From: a virus
IMG/VR virus record: IMGVR_UViG_3300030328_001638
Span: 1 to 64,000 of that record
Reading direction: 5' to 3' (one strand)
Length of the DNA stretch: 64,000 nt
Part shown: positions 8,201 to 40,219 of the stretch, piece by piece
How the letters are laid out: each line of letters begins with the position of its first letter
How positions within the stretch are numbered: position 1 is the first letter of the stretch
Translations under genes and position numbers: made by a program
The notes under the pieces: generated by a model
The model's database searches: none
Seen by the model: the letters and a program-made list of their open reading frames with translations, nothing else
What the model was told of the DNA's origin: nothing

Positions 8201-9826
8201 TTATTTAGCTCTTTGATGAGTAACAATAGCGTTTGTACTTAAGATAGTAGTAGCTACACTTATAGCATTGCTTAATGCATGTTTAGTTACTTTAAGTGGA
8301 TCAATAACTCCTAACTTAAACATATTCCCATACTTTTCATTTTTTACATCATACCCTAAAAATTCTTCTTCTTCTAATATTTTTACAGGAATATTGCTTT
8401 CCTTAAGTATGTCTTTATAATCTAACCCTGCGTTATTTAAGATTTGGACAAGGGGGGCTTTCAGAGCTTCCATCAATATATGTTTCGCTGCTTTGTCATT
8501 TTTATTATTCTTGTTTCCGCAGTCACAGTCCTGTAATGAGGTAGAGGCATTCCATAAAGCGTATCCTCCTCCAGCGATAATACCTTCTTCAAGTGCTGAC
8601 TTGACAGCACATACCGAGTCATCGACTCGGTCAAATTTTTCTTTTTGCTCTACATCACTATTACCTCCTACATATATACATCCTATTCCTCCTGATAGAC
8701 TTGCTATTCTTTCATTTAAGAATGTTTTTTGATTTACATCTGTAGTTGTTTGTTGTTGAACCTTAAGTTCTGCTATACGATTATCTATTTCTTCAGTACG
8801 AATATTCTCTTTTAATATAACTGTAGATTGTTGGCCTACTATTATTTTGTTTGCATGTCCTAAATCATTAGGAGTAATTAAACTTAAGTCGTCTCCTGTC
8901 TTTTCAGAATAGTATTTAGCTCCTACTGCTAAAGCAATATCTTGCATTAACTCATGTTGTTTGTATCCAAACTGCGGAGGTTGTATATTACAAAACTTTA
9001 AACCATTACGAACTACATTAGCTGCAAGGGTATTTATTACATTGGTAGTACACGTTCCTATTATTAATAATTTTTGATTATTATTAATGACGGGTTTTAG
9101 TACATTTTCAATTTGAAGTATATTGCTTATTTCACTATCACAAACTAAAACCTTAACATCATCTAATATACACTCATCTTTTCTTTGGTCATTAATAAAT
9201 AAATTAGAAGTGTATCCTCTATTTATTTTAATTCCGTTTGTTATCTCAGAATAAGTTTCTGATGTCATAGATTTCTCTACCGTTACTACTCCGTCTTTTC
9301 CTACCTTGTTATATGCCTGGGCAATAATCTTTCCTAACTCTTTATCATTGTTAGCCGAAACAGAAGCTACATCTAAAAGTTTCTTTTTATTTACTTTCTG
9401 TGATCCTTCTTTTAAATACTTAAATACTCTTTCTTTGTTTTCATTAACAAACCTAATGACCTCAGTAATATTGTGGGTATCATTTATAATCTCTTGACCT
9501 GCTTTAATAATTGCTTCAGTCAATACAATAGCTGTAGTTGTTCCATCACCCGCTGAGTTAGCAGTTCTATTAGCTGCATCCTTCATCATCTGTATTGCAA
9601 GATTAGATACAGGGTCGTCTAACTCAATCGACCTCGCTACCGTCACTCCGTCTTTGGTAACTGTAATATTATTAGTATGTTCTGGGGATTCTATTAAAAC
9701 TGTATTACCCTCTGGGCCGAGTGTACTTTTTACAGCTTTAGATATTATGGAAATTCCTTCAATTAGTTTTTGTCTTCCTTCATCATCAAAGCAGACATCT
9801 TTTGGTATATAGCCTGAAACGCTCAT
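8201..9826 (-). CDS. groEL: GroEL-type chaperonin (Cpn60)
   Basis: A 541-aa full-length group I chaperonin. Motifs are in the canonical order: TLGPEGN (about 35-41), TKDGVTVA (57-64, with Asp60 matching the ATPase Asp52), GDGTTTA (93-99, with Asp94 matching Asp87), RVDD then EEGIIAGGG, and a C-terminal GVIDPLKVTKHAL. The C-terminus lacks the GGM-rich tail and ends THQRAK. The lid region carries an extra Asn/Lys/Asp-rich Cys-containing insert (QDCDCGNKNNKND). It forms an operon with groES. Its upstream region has a TATATTTG box and iteron-like repeats. It is probably used to fold capsid, terminase or other virion proteins. Confidence 0.97.
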   Translation of the reverse strand: MSVSGYIPKDVCFDDEGRQKLIEGISIISKAVKSTLGPEGNTVLIESPEHTNNITVTKDGVTVARSIELDDPVSNLAIQMMKDAANRTANSAGDGTTTAIVLTEAIIKAGQEIINDTHNITEVIRFVNENKERVFKYLKEGSQKVNKKKLLDVASVSANNDKELGKIIAQAYNKVGKDGVVTVEKSMTSETYSEITNGIKINRGYTSNLFINDQRKDECILDDVKVLVCDSEISNILQIENVLKPVINNNQKLLIIGTCTTNVINTLAANVVRNGLKFCNIQPPQFGYKQHELMQDIALAVGAKYYSEKTGDDLSLITPNDLGHANKIIVGQQSTVILKENIRTEEIDNRIAELKVQQQTTTDVNQKTFLNERIASLSGGIGCIYVGGNSDVEQKEKFDRVDDSVCAVKSALEEGIIAGGGYALWNASTSLQDCDCGNKNNKNDKAAKHILMEALKAPLVQILNNAGLDYKDILKESNIPVKILEEEEFLGYDVKNEKYGNMFKLGVIDPLKVTKHALSNAISVATTILSTNAIVTHQRAK

Positions 9827-11146: not shown

Positions 11147-11647
11147 ATGAATACTAAAATGAACACTTTAATGACAAAAATTACGAATGGCGATATGGCA
11201 AGATTATCAATCATATTGCACAGACATATCGTTGTGAATAATCCTCAAGATTGTACAGAGGGATTAGAAGAATTAAATTCTAAACTAAAACAGATGGTTG
11301 AGAGCAATACTCATTCTCACTACTCCCTTGATATTCAAGGTTGTTCTGATGCACACAAGTTGCACGAGGGACAAACCATATCATTGGGTTTAGGAGTGAA
11401 TAGATTAGAGGAGTTAGAGAAGGAATTTGAAGAATGGATGAATGAGAATGTTTATCAGAATGTGGATGGTAGTTTCTCAACACAAGATGCACAATGGAGA
11501 AATAGAATCCAAACAAAGAATGAGTTGAAAAAATACTTTCTACGAGAGTTTAGAGAGTTGGAAGAGATAAGCGATAGAGAGAAAAATTACAATCCTAATG
11601 AAAACTATATAAGGGGAGGATTTAATCCATTTAAAACTAAATTATAA
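11147..11647 (+). CDS. Early protein, unknown function
   Basis: A 166-aa acidic, mostly helical protein. It begins MNTKMNTLMTKITNGDMARL, has a His/Ser segment (VESNTHSHYSLDIQG) and a charged helical second half (NRLEELEKEFEEWMNENVYQ). Its stop codon TAA (11645-11647) forms the 5' strand of stem I of the hammerhead ribozyme that follows. Translation through the stop would therefore disturb that fold. No conserved domain is recognised. Confidence 0.65.
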   Translation: MNTKMNTLMTKITNGDMARLSIILHRHIVVNNPQDCTEGLEELNSKLKQMVESNTHSHYSLDIQGCSDAHKLHEGQTISLGLGVNRLEELEKEFEEWMNENVYQNVDGSFSTQDAQWRNRIQTKNELKKYFLREFRELEEISDREKNYNPNENYIRGGFNPFKTKL

Positions 11648-11704
11648 CTGATGAGGATTCAAAATCCGAAACAAGATGATTGTGAAATTCTCTTGTATTA
11701 TAAT
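11641..11704 (+). ncRNA. Hammerhead ribozyme, type I (HHR1)
   Basis: All elements of the family consensus are visible. The core CTGATGA is at 11648-11654. Stem II GGAT/ATCC (11655-11658 with 11664-11667) has a 5-nt loop and the required G10.1-C11.1 pair, followed by GAAA (11668-11671). Stem III ACAAGA/TCTTGT (11671-11676 with 11691-11696) closes a 14-nt loop. The cleavage-site base is A11697 (GUA triplet). Stem I is 7 bp, ATTATAA (11641-11647) with TTATAAT (11698-11704), and open-ended, hence type I. Cleavage is predicted after 11697, 25 bases before the ATG at 11723, separating the upstream message from the downstream one. Sequence-based only; activity is not tested. Confidence 0.9.
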
Positions 11705-11722
11705 AAAAATAAAACAATAATT

Positions 11723-11941
11723 ATGAAAACCGAACACTTAACTTATGAATGGGAAATCTCTCCTAACAATATTGTAGAGATTGACTATACCTACTCTCAA
11801 GAGAGTGGAGACTATCTACAACCACCTTACGAAGAAATTGAGATAGACAGAATGACTTTAAATGGAGATGATGTAACAGATAGATTACACGATACATTTG
11901 AGTATGAAATTATAGAAGAAATTACTAACCAAACACTTTAA
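11723..11941 (+). CDS. Small acidic protein downstream of HHR1
   Basis: A 72-aa protein from the ATG at 11723 (MKTEHLTYEWEISPNNIVEI). An earlier in-frame ATG at 11651 lies inside the ribozyme core and would encode a basic extension unlike the rest, so the 11723 start, preceded by AAAACAATAATT, is preferred. The protein is rich in Glu/Asp/Tyr, with no recognised domain. It is followed 3 bases later by the 155-aa gene. Confidence 0.65.
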   Translation: MKTEHLTYEWEISPNNIVEIDYTYSQESGDYLQPPYEEIEIDRMTLNGDDVTDRLHDTFEYEIIEEITNQTL

Positions 11942-14172: not shown

Positions 14173-14221
14173 TCTGTCGTAAGGTGTGTGCCTTGCCTGA
14201 TGAAGCGAAAGCAGAAACAGA
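14173..14221 (+). ncRNA. Hammerhead ribozyme, type III (HHR2)
   Basis: Order along the RNA: stem III 3' strand TCTGT (14173-14177); cleavage base C14178 (GUC triplet); stem I hairpin GTAAGG/CCTTGC (14179-14184 with 14191-14196, one G-U pair, loop TGTGTG); core CTGATGA (14197-14203); a short stem II GC/GC with GAAA loop (14205-14212); GAAA (14214-14217); stem III 5' strand ACAGA (14217-14221). Stem III pairs exactly and is open-ended, hence type III. The weak point is A14204/A14213, where most natural hammerheads have a G-C pair, so it may cleave slowly. Predicted cleavage is after 14178, about 68 bases before the ATG at 14247. Confidence 0.78.
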
Positions 14222-14246: not shown

Positions 14247-14744
14247 ATGGGACAATATTATATGCCGATAAACAAGACCAAAAAAGAGTATCTAAATCCT
14301 CATACTTTTGGCAATGGACTTAAACTAATGGAATTCACAAGTGATGGAAGAGGAGTGTTACAAGGACTATCTCTACTACTTGCTAATGGTAATGGTAGAG
14401 GGGGTGGAGACCATCCAAGTGGAGACAAGCTGATAGGATCATGGAGTGGAGACAACATCACAATTGAAGGAGATTATGCTGACAATTCACTATGGGATGT
14501 TATAGCTAAAGATGAGGACAAGAAGAAACCACAATGGAAAGATGTAAGCATACCTACATACAGACTCTTACTGCAAAATACTTGGGTTGGTAGAGAGATG
14601 GAAGAAAGAATACTTAAAAGTGGTACACAATTTATGATGCAAGATGAGAAAAAGTTAATGGAAGAGTTATTTCCAAAAGCTTGTGTAGAAGGAGATTTGC
14701 GACAGAAATTTGACTTTGTAGAAAAAGGACAATCTGATGAGTAA
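14247..14744 (+). CDS. GQYY-type early protein, unknown function
   Basis: A 165-aa protein with the N-terminal MGQYYMPINKTKKEYLNPH and GNGLKLMEF, a Gly/Asp/His centre (GNGRGGGDHPSGDKLIGSW) and IEGDYADNSLWD. A family of bacterial and phage hypothetical proteins starting MGQYY and containing GDYAD is known to me, without an assigned function. The last five codons form part of stem I and the core of hammerhead HHR3, and the stop (14742-14744) lies in stem II. Confidence 0.7.
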   Translation: MGQYYMPINKTKKEYLNPHTFGNGLKLMEFTSDGRGVLQGLSLLLANGNGRGGGDHPSGDKLIGSWSGDNITIEGDYADNSLWDVIAKDEDKKKPQWKDVSIPTYRLLLQNTWVGREMEERILKSGTQFMMQDEKKLMEELFPKACVEGDLRQKFDFVEKGQSDE

Positions 14745-14788
14745 AGGTTTAAACACCTACGAAACACCTCAATTTGAGGTGTAATTGT
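14729..14788 (+). ncRNA. Hammerhead ribozyme, type I (HHR3)
   Basis: Stem I 5' strand is ACAAT (14729-14733). The core CTGATGA is at 14734-14740. Stem II starts G14741 and ends C14760 (GTA/TAC, two-base bulge, then GGT/ACC). GAAA is at 14761-14764. Stem III is a perfect 8-bp hairpin ACACCTCA/TGAGGTGT (14764-14771 with 14775-14782, loop ATT). The cleavage base is A14783 (GUA), and stem I 3' strand is ATTGT (14784-14788), extendable by two G-U pairs. All invariant bases fit. The 5' part is inside the coding sequence of the upstream gene, and cleavage would fall 24 bases before the ATG at 14808. Confidence 0.88.
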
Positions 14789-14807
14789 TTAATTTAAAAA
14801 TAAAATT

Positions 14808-15011
14808 ATGAGTAATTTAAGCTATTGCAGATTTCAAAATACTGCACGAGATTTAAGAGATTGCCTAAACGCAATTGAAGATGGTCAGATAGATGACTTA
14901 TCATTTGAGGAATTCAAAGGAATACAACAAATTCTGCAGGATTGCGAAACCTTAATGTTTATGAAGGAAGAGATTGAAGATGAGATAGGAGTAGAGCCAT
15001 CCAGAAACTAA
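14808..15011 (+). CDS. Small acidic protein downstream of HHR3
   Basis: A 67-aa protein, MSNLSYCRFQNTARDLRDCL then an acidic helix (EEFKGIQQILQDCETLMFMK) and end GVEPSRN. The start MSNLSYCRFxNTxxDLxDC is a pattern I associate with short conserved phage and plasmid proteins of unknown function. It is the first gene after the predicted HHR3 cut, with a TTTAAAAATAAAATT leader. Confidence 0.6.
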   Translation: MSNLSYCRFQNTARDLRDCLNAIEDGQIDDLSFEEFKGIQQILQDCETLMFMKEEIEDEIGVEPSRN

Positions 15012-15731: not shown

Positions 15732-15806
15732 TGCGAGGTAGAGCAGTCAGGTCAGCTCGTTGGGTTCATATCCCAAAGGTCGCAGGTTCAAATCCTGCCC
15801 TCGCAC
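15732..15806 (+). tRNA. tRNA-Met (anticodon CAT)
   Basis: A full cloverleaf. Acceptor TGCGAGG (15732-15738) pairs with CCTCGCA (15799-15805). The D-arm is GAGC/GCTC. The anticodon stem TTGGG/CCCAA has loop TTCATAT (anticodon CAT). The T-arm is GCAGG/CCTGC with loop TTCAAAT. The first base pair is T-A rather than the C-A mismatch of bacterial initiator tRNA, so elongator Met is favoured; a lysidine-modified Ile2 tRNA cannot be excluded. CCA is not encoded. The apparent discriminator base is C, which is unusual. Confidence 0.9.
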
Positions 15807-37912: not shown

Positions 37913-40219
37913 CTATGAAATTTTATTAAAATCTACATCTACTTTATTGTAATCTACAAATAAATAATCACCTACAGATACAGTAGCCCAAGGAACTTCT
38001 TGAGCAATTACGCCAGAGAAATTACCCTCCCCATATTTATCAGGGTTTATATAATTCCAGGAATATATATTTATGCCATTAGGTGATTGCCCTACTAATT
38101 TAATGTTTTCTTTTAATCTTTTGTCAGAGGGTGCGCCTCCGCCTCCGCCTCCGCCTCCGCCTTGACGCCTTTTAGTGTTTAATTTATCAATAAGCTCATT
38201 AATATGACGAGTAACTTCTCCTTGTAATTTAACAGTATCGTCATCAAATACAAAAACTTTACGCATATCTCTATTAGTAGTAGGGTCTTTATAGGTAACT
38301 ATAACTTTGTTGTCCCCACTCATCGTTACATCAACACCCTCTACACTTACAGGTAAGCCATGTTGGTTTAATGCGTTTGTATAAGCTTGATTTACAGCCT
38401 CAGCCGCCTTATTTATCTCCCCACCTGCACCCGTCAGAGCTTTAAATAAAGTAGCGGTTTCAGCACCTTGAAGACCATCCAGAGCTGGGTTATATGGTGC
38501 TATATCAGTTATTATTTCTGTAGTTTCAAACACCTCTTCACCTTTATAGTTTGGATTAGGAATCATTTTTTTAGGGTTATTCGGGTCTTTAATCATCCTT
38601 GGTTCTAAACTAAAATTTTCTTCTTCTTTTAATAAGTTAATAAACCCATCATATGCATAATTATCTAATATTTCTTTAGGCACTATAACTCTATAAAGTT
38701 TTCTTGCTATATCGTCTTGTGATAATGCACCTGTGTTGTCAATAGTAACAGATATATCTGTTTGTCGATTATATTGATCTGTCATAGTTCGCTTAATAAC
38801 AATCTTTTCACCATCTCTTTTTATAGAGTGTATTTTGATACCATCTTTATTAAGACGCATATTCATATCTTCAATACGGTCATCCGATACAGCTCCTGCA
38901 GTTCCGCTTGCGGCTTCCATAATATTTTTAATATCACTACCTATACCTGAGATTGCACTTACTTTATCAGCTTTAGCATCATCATAAACTTTTTTGTTTA
39001 AACGATAATTTAACATTGCAACATTTGGCCCTGTTTTTTCTACCTTCAAATCAATCTGAGAATTTACCGCTTCATCTATTTCTAACTTAGCGTTTTCCTT
39101 CAGTTTGTCTATGTCACTTACAACACTCACCTCTCCATTCTCTATATTCAATATAATTACATCACCACCTTCGTCAACCGTTTTAGCATCTGCCCCATAT
39201 TTTGTTTTCATATCTGATAATGAGGTAGCAATTTTTTTACCTCCAATCTCTGTCATTACTTGAACAATTCCATTAGGAGTAGACAATAATGAATTTTGTA
39301 AGTCTTCTAAAATCTCATCATAAGCTGTTGAACCTGGTGTAACTCCTGGCATCTTTCTAAAATCATAAGTAGTAGTTTTTGATCCGTCATAAGAACTTAC
39401 CTCTGTAGTTACATAGGCTGCTAAAGCATCAACTTGATCTGAAATTGCACCACCTACATCCACCGTAGTTGAATCATCTCCACTATACATAAATAACTGA
39501 GCTAATTGGTCAACTCCAATAAAATCGTCTCTGTTAGTGCTAAACTCTGTGCCGTATCCTGAGTTTTGTTGTATGTATTTTTCTACCTCTTCTTGAGGAA
39601 TATCCTCTTTCTGGTAAACTTTGTTTTCGGATCCCTGATGTCGTAGTTTAACAATCGCAGCTCGAGCCTCTTCTTCAGTCATTTTGTATTTTAACTTTCC
39701 TATTTGAATCATACCATCTTTTCCTTGAACGATATTATGCCCTTTAAGGCCTCCAAATCCTTGTAGATAATCATATACGGCTAAATCCATATTAGTCGCT
39801 GAATCATTATCAATTCTCTCTTTAATGGCTTGTGTCCATCCTCCAATATTTTTTAAGATTGCTCCAGTGGTTTTGTATTGAGATTTTTGATTTACTTGAA
39901 ATAGAGAGAAATCTTCTGGAGATATTATCCCATCCTTTACTTGTTGATATCTATCCTGTAAAGTTGCCATAGATATCTGAGAAGCTTTAATTAATTTAGC
40001 CTGTACATTTAAATCATCTGTTTCAGGGATGTCCCCTAACTTTTCTGCGGAAGCTTCAAATTCTTTTTTTACTTTTTCTCGCTCATCAAGTTTTCTTTTT
40101 CTGGCATCCATAAGCTGTCCGCTAAAATCAGACGCTACTTCACCCCAATTTATTGACTGATTCTCTCCTTTTGTAGGAGTTAAATCATAATCTGATACTG
40201 ATCTTCTTGTTAATGCCAT
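37913..40219 (-). CDS. Internal virion protein with S74-like C-terminus
   Basis: A 768-aa protein. Most of it is charged and helical (EKVKKEFEASAEKLGDIPET type), as in ejection-pore proteins. Near the end a run of nine Gly (about 687-695), encoded by a perfect GGAGGC-type repeat, precedes APSDKRLKENIKLVGQSPNG (Ser698-Asp699), then YSWNYINP and SGVIAQEV. This matches the intramolecular chaperone/peptidase S74 signature, in which the chain is cut next to the Ser-Asp pair. An autoprocessing internal protein is inferred. Confidence 0.7.
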   Translation of the reverse strand: MALTRRSVSDYDLTPTKGENQSINWGEVASDFSGQLMDARKRKLDEREKVKKEFEASAEKLGDIPETDDLNVQAKLIKASQISMATLQDRYQQVKDGIISPEDFSLFQVNQKSQYKTTGAILKNIGGWTQAIKERIDNDSATNMDLAVYDYLQGFGGLKGHNIVQGKDGMIQIGKLKYKMTEEEARAAIVKLRHQGSENKVYQKEDIPQEEVEKYIQQNSGYGTEFSTNRDDFIGVDQLAQLFMYSGDDSTTVDVGGAISDQVDALAAYVTTEVSSYDGSKTTTYDFRKMPGVTPGSTAYDEILEDLQNSLLSTPNGIVQVMTEIGGKKIATSLSDMKTKYGADAKTVDEGGDVIILNIENGEVSVVSDIDKLKENAKLEIDEAVNSQIDLKVEKTGPNVAMLNYRLNKKVYDDAKADKVSAISGIGSDIKNIMEAASGTAGAVSDDRIEDMNMRLNKDGIKIHSIKRDGEKIVIKRTMTDQYNRQTDISVTIDNTGALSQDDIARKLYRVIVPKEILDNYAYDGFINLLKEEENFSLEPRMIKDPNNPKKMIPNPNYKGEEVFETTEIITDIAPYNPALDGLQGAETATLFKALTGAGGEINKAAEAVNQAYTNALNQHGLPVSVEGVDVTMSGDNKVIVTYKDPTTNRDMRKVFVFDDDTVKLQGEVTRHINELIDKLNTKRRQGGGGGGGGGAPSDKRLKENIKLVGQSPNGINIYSWNYINPDKYGEGNFSGVIAQEVPWATVSVGDYLFVDYNKVDVDFNKIS

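Follow-up and report, generated by a model that had tools for sequence, protein, structure and literature searches.

What does a hammerhead ribozyme do when it lies across the end of a phage gene? This question is raised by a locus in a 64,000-nucleotide stretch of virus DNA (positions 1 to 64,000 of IMG/VR record IMGVR_UViG_3300030328_001638), hereafter named the window. The role of bacterial and phage hammerheads has been called an open question (PMC6155905). The terminase, portal and capsid-region proteins encoded in the window match tailed-phage PHROGs, and the protein encoded at 54698-55837 matches a Manatee Spring podovirus (52%) and structural proteins of Elemovirus phages of Flavobacterium (38%). 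The window also carries a phage-encoded GroEL (phrog_5725) at 8201-9826 on the minus strand, as do Elemovirus and the Manatee Spring phage, and a clear tRNA-Met (CAU) gene at 15732-15806 on the plus strand, downstream of the ribozymes. The features discussed below are the following:

11641-11704, plus strand: the window's other type I hammerhead (core 11648-11654, predicted cut after 11697)
14173-14221, plus strand: type III-like hammerhead candidate ahead of the 165-aa gene, with an A-A mismatch at 10.1-11.1
14247-14744, plus strand: upstream gene, 165 aa, MGQYY family, ending within the ribozyme
14727-14790, plus strand: type I hammerhead ribozyme, with all conserved positions and three stems
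14727-14733, plus strand: 5' strand of stem I, GGACAAU, pairing with 14784-14790 and doubling as codons of the 165-aa gene
14734-14740, plus strand: catalytic core CUGAUGA (C3 to A9), from the sequence
14741-14760, plus strand: stem II, GUA-AA-GGU-UUAAAC-ACC-UAC, with an AA bulge, near-invariant in 15 loci
14742-14744, plus strand: TAA stop codon of the 165-aa gene, within stem II
14761-14764, plus strand: core GAAA (G12, A13, A14, A15.1), from the sequence
14764-14782, plus strand: stem III, ACACCUCA-AUU-UGAGGUGU, 8 bp from A15.1 to U16.1, from the fold and covariation
14783, plus strand: H17, an A; predicted cut 3' of this base, from the NUH rule in relatives
14784-14790, plus strand: 3' strand of stem I, AUUGUUU, pairing with 14727-14733
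14784-14807, plus strand: 24-nt leader that the cut would leave ahead of the next gene
14808-15011, plus strand: downstream gene, 67 aa, phrog_8760

Every position that defines a type I hammerhead is present in 14727-14790 (C3 U4 G5 A6 N7 G8 A9, G12 A13 A14, the A15.1-U16.1 pair and H17). A preliminary description of the locus had reported such a ribozyme with the core elements CTGATGA and GAAA, a stem I of at least 5 bp, a bulged stem II and an 8-bp stem III with a GUA site, and all of these were recovered. Stem I is open and counts 7 bp, two of them G-U; stem II has 6 bp and the AA bulge; stem III has 8 bp, the A15.1-U16.1 pair included, and an AUU loop. The description had placed the element at 14729-14788, which is the right site, but the full span is slightly wider. 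The core-adjacent pairs are A-U at 1.1-2.1, G-C at 10.1-11.1 and A-U at 15.1-16.1. The predicted cleavage site is GUA, with the cut between 14783 and 14784. H17 is an A here and a C in most relatives; an A at this position usually cleaves more slowly than a C. The minimum free energy of the element is -16.0 kcal/mol (z -2.7), and the corresponding structure recovers stem I, stem III and the upper part of stem II. Judged by comparison with its relatives, described next, 14727-14790 is almost certainly a true type I hammerhead.

Relatives were analyzed with a structural descriptor for types I, II and III that requires pairing. It detected 207 hammerheads (195 of type I) in 87 strand-loci of the fetched phage relatives, and none in about 3.06 Mb of reversed control sequence. 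At least two hammerheads were found in 44 of the 87 loci, never on both strands of one locus. The compensatory changes that the preliminary description had proposed to look for are evident, since stems I and III covary among relatives: stem I pairs 1-5 form in 41/41 distinct type I elements with several pair types, and stem III likewise keeps its pairing with different pair types. Pairing reached 88.9% in stem I and 98.4% in stem III, against 48.7% and 63.6% with partners shuffled, although these percentages are inflated because the descriptor selects for pairing. Loci fetched by DNA patterns spanning the core and stem II only avoid this inflation. Among them, 101 of the 102 usable type I cases have stems I and III as well, compared with 8 of 143 when the 3' flank was shuffled. 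The class of the window element (class A) contributes 14/14 type I cases, its fifteenth member, L053, being of type III, and class B contributes 87 of 88 usable cases. Positions 16.1 and 17, left unconstrained, are likewise free of the inflation; U16.1 together with A or C at 17 was found in 106 of 107 relatives, and G at 17 never. N7 varies freely. A short reading frame (MSKGLNTYETPQFEV) that would use the core's ATG as its start was considered and rejected, as N7 can be T, A, C or G and the ATG is not kept.

Across 15 loci, the stem II of the window class is near-invariant (GUAAAGGUUUNAACACCUAC), AA bulge and loop included, in contrast to stems I and III, whose sequences have diverged but still pair. 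Relaxing stem II in the pattern added only one locus, and the exact class A pattern had no match in GTDB genomes, which were searched for a host. The near-invariance suggests that more than pairing is under constraint; loop II may, for instance, make a tertiary contact with the stem I region. In class B loci, including L078 and L116, AA is often conserved on both outer sides of a 6-bp stem I, and the leaders of these and other class B loci often read ACTATCAA ahead of the ATG; a tertiary contact and an initiation signal, respectively, are possible explanations. Stem III accepts inserts of roughly 30-45 nt, some with hairpins of their own, in L029:13214 (minus strand), L027 and L024. A scan lists 14764-14782 as a weak intrinsic terminator match, which would make the stem III hairpin a mere terminator. 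This reading was rejected for want of a solid T-run after the hairpin, here and in relatives; it also leaves the core, stem I and the NUH rule unexplained, and we consider it hardly credible.

The element lies across the end of a gene. The 165-aa reading frame ends ...CAA TCT GAT GAG TAA (QSDE, stop) within the core and stem II, so that its last sense codons and stop are spread over stem I, the core and stem II; the 5' strand of the ribozyme does encode the last residues of the protein, as first described. Pfam and PHROGs searches returned no function for this protein, and no relatives of it were found in named phages. To ask whether protein or ribozyme dictates the shared sequence, C-terminal ends were compared with stems. 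A tail of the form [GE]QS[DE]E and the window ribozyme class are common to four diverged proteins, those of the window, L002, L008 and L046, the last three being 53-71% identical to the first. Orthologues in L003-L006, which have a different ribozyme class, end in ...DFVEK and lack the QS[DE]E tail; in L003, the other class directly follows this end. In L001, the protein ends in a short tail of unrelated sequence, and its gene is separated from the ribozyme by another gene, of 90 aa. Orthologues without the window ribozyme class are thus also without the tail, indicating that the tail follows the ribozyme and not the protein. No relative keeps the protein end and loses the stems, the outcome that the preliminary description had held to count against it; the reverse was seen. 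The orthologous junctions of L003-L006 retain a hammerhead despite a stem II class differing from that of the window. The coding role of the overlap at the window site is therefore probably incidental.

Such overlap is also common. Of 168 hammerheads with a clear upstream reading frame, 111 contain the upstream stop or directly adjoin it, so the overlap in the window is nothing special. The stop lies inside or beyond the core start in 31 of the 168 (20 at +4, 5 at +11 and 6 at +14). The preliminary description had suggested that translation and cleavage could be coupled. Ribosomes ending the upstream gene would then hold the ribozyme open, and the RNA would be cut only when poorly translated, giving feedback on expression. 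A ribosome terminating in stem II must indeed cover stem I and the core, and in 163 of 168 cases no more than about 20 nt separate the stop from the core. However, the stop of relatives can fall anywhere between -18 and +14 relative to the core, which speaks against a fixed geometry; orthologues lack the overlap itself, and short gene gaps account for it without regulation. While a type I hammerhead overlapping the gene end is well supported, coupling is possible but nothing favours it over plain compactness, and we regard it as unlikely. Selection for a three-frame stop cassette was also considered and set aside as weak only (stops in all three frames in 87/188, where a shuffle null gives 37%); stem I ends in TAA about equally often when this is not the stop of the gene.

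The placement of the ribozymes relative to the next gene follows a rule. The hammerheads of relatives lie at gene junctions on the coding strand, and in 161 of 175 the cut precedes the next ATG by 16-34 nt (median 23, 5th percentile 19). In the window, the next ATG, at 14808, is 24 nt past the predicted cut. By simple ORF calls, genes at ordinary same-strand junctions in these regions are separated by a median of 11 nt, and the gap is below 18 nt in 58%. Given the bounded leaders at ribozymes, a minimum leader is thus a property of ribozyme junctions. A cut 16-34 nt before the ATG keeps the downstream initiation region 3' of the cut, and this shared rule agrees with cutting at junctions in which the following gene keeps its initiation region.

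The ribozymes also form arrays, with 11 copies in 11 kb in L078, 9 in L116 and 8 in 4 kb in L148. The last is a 5.8-kb contig binned as an Aliivibrio MAG and is probably a phage contig in the wrong bin. In the window, the descriptor returned two strong type I elements, with cores at 11648 and 14734, both on the plus strand and flanking genes of one operon, an arrangement that qualifies as clustered. The first, at 11641-11704, is flush with the stop of a 166-aa gene and has its cut 25 nt before the ATG at 11723. The element at 14173-14221 (UCUGU/ACAGA, GUC, a 6-7 bp stem I hairpin and a 2-bp stem II) is listed as a candidate only, because the closing-pair rule of stem II fails; it may be weak or dead. 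Hammerheads ahead of the same MGQYY gene in L008:5930 and L007:2576 have a T-T mismatch at 10.1-11.1, where the window has A-A, and are possibly attenuated variants.

Another reading takes the ribozymes for mobile or selfish cassettes, or for relics, that hardly affect expression. In its favour, several stem II classes are seen at equivalent junctions, members of one class are found next to unrelated genes, and inserts in stem III are frequent. Against it, elements whose stems have diverged strongly still retain the core, the NUH rule and pairing, and the distance to the next ATG is tightly bounded, where relics would drift. We hold this reading to be improbable.

From structure, conservation, covariation, strand, placement and leader length, all read from the sequence, we infer cleavage, its timing, its effect on the mRNA and the assignment of the region to an early operon. 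The element at 14727-14790 is in our view likely to be a genuine type I hammerhead that cuts the nascent transcript of a phage early operon at a gene junction. The RNA would fold when the polymerase has moved beyond about 14790, and would cut after A14783. The released RNA with the 165-aa gene would end in the structure formed by stems II and III and carry a 2',3'-cyclic phosphate; the RNA of the downstream gene would start with a 5'-OH, followed by a leader of 24 nt. Together with the other ribozymes of the operon, this would split a polycistronic message into mRNAs of one or a few genes. The overlap would reflect compact packing, the reading frame running into the ribozyme and ending at a TAA that stem II happens to carry. 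Not all junctions carry ribozymes, and several genes separate the two clear ones of the window, so most mRNAs here would still be polycistronic. More tentatively, hammerhead arrays might serve as general operon punctuation in some phages: a portable unit with an optional stop codon, cutting about 18-34 nt before the start, so that most genes would be released as separate mRNAs with intact initiation regions.

The same RNA ends could have another fate. A doubly cut RNA, with a 5'-OH and a 2',3'-cyclic phosphate, might be religated by its 3'-terminal hammerhead or by RtcB into a circular mRNA. Adjacent hammerheads have an identical stem I 5' strand in 43 of 110 pairs, against 7% between loci, and an RNA released between two such copies can pair its 5' end again with the ribozyme that closes its 3' end. 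The other 67 of 110 pairs do not match, however, local duplication can also yield a shared stem I, and a search by Perreault et al. for spliced or circular products did not detect any (PMC3088659). We give circular mRNAs little credence compared with the cutting of operon messages.

Hammerheads of this kind are also present in cultured phages, namely Elemovirus on Flavobacterium sp. BAL314, Methylophilales phage MEP301 and Pelagibacter phage Jormungand. A 201-base segment, at least 99% identical, was found in 68 of 68 matched Elemovirus records and carries a type III hammerhead, which sits in the leader of a leftward operon; elemoC has a second hammerhead copy, of type I. These Elemovirus hammerheads are at L061:17894 and at L150:5073 and 3004, all on the minus strand. 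In MEP301 (L151:708), the core is at 708 and the annotated gp02 ends at 722, within the hammerhead. In Jormungand (L152:38225), the core at 38225 lies inside the annotated gp49 (38083-38265). A class B hammerhead is also found at L149:4216 (minus strand), on a 95-kb contig of the isolate Flavobacterium sp. A45, which is possibly a prophage. With more than 200 copies, a strict position rule, nearly all members under Rfam thresholds and some in cultured phages, this set bears on the role of phage hammerheads. The overlap with stop codons is a natural example of one sequence serving as both codons and catalytic RNA.

The window element shares with the Rfam hammerhead family RF00163 the three-way junction, open stem I, CUGANGA, GAAA and an NUH site. 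It differs by its AA-bulged, near-invariant stem II, by the upstream stop inside stem II and by falling below reporting level: Rfam gave no hammerhead match at the element even at E <= 10, nor any in the whole window at E <= 5, and the element remains under the RF00163 gathering score of 34 bits. With Rfam 15, one of about 50 copies, a relative with 35.7 bits, reaches this score. Some relatives have sub-threshold matches to the hammerhead variant RAGATH-1 (RF03152), the best at 42 bits against a threshold of 56.3 bits; the window has no match, and the upstream hairpin of that model was not seen at the window element. Sub-threshold Rfam matches to snoRNA and sRNA families in the region were dismissed as chance-level.

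The closest known system is that of prophages in which clustered hammerheads flank single genes or short blocks (Perreault et al. 2011, PMC3088659). Some of these tandem sets were shown to cleave in vitro, cleavage in vivo in E. coli is reported for A. tumefaciens, and transcript processing was already proposed in that work (PMC3088659). A literature search for hammerhead arrays in lytic or marine phages, with subscription journals mostly outside its coverage, found only this study and reviews. Both systems have several ribozymes per phage region around genes and lead to the same processing idea. In contrast to the prophages, the loci described here are phage contigs and cultured aquatic phages, hold up to 11 ribozymes in 11 kb, nearly all of type I, and combine a narrow cut-to-start distance with frequent overlap of the upstream stop codon. 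Neither the ribozyme class nor the proposal that it processes phage transcripts is new; within the literature searched, the new points are the density, the distance rule, the frequent stop overlap, the class with an invariant bulged stem II and the near-total absence from Rfam matches.
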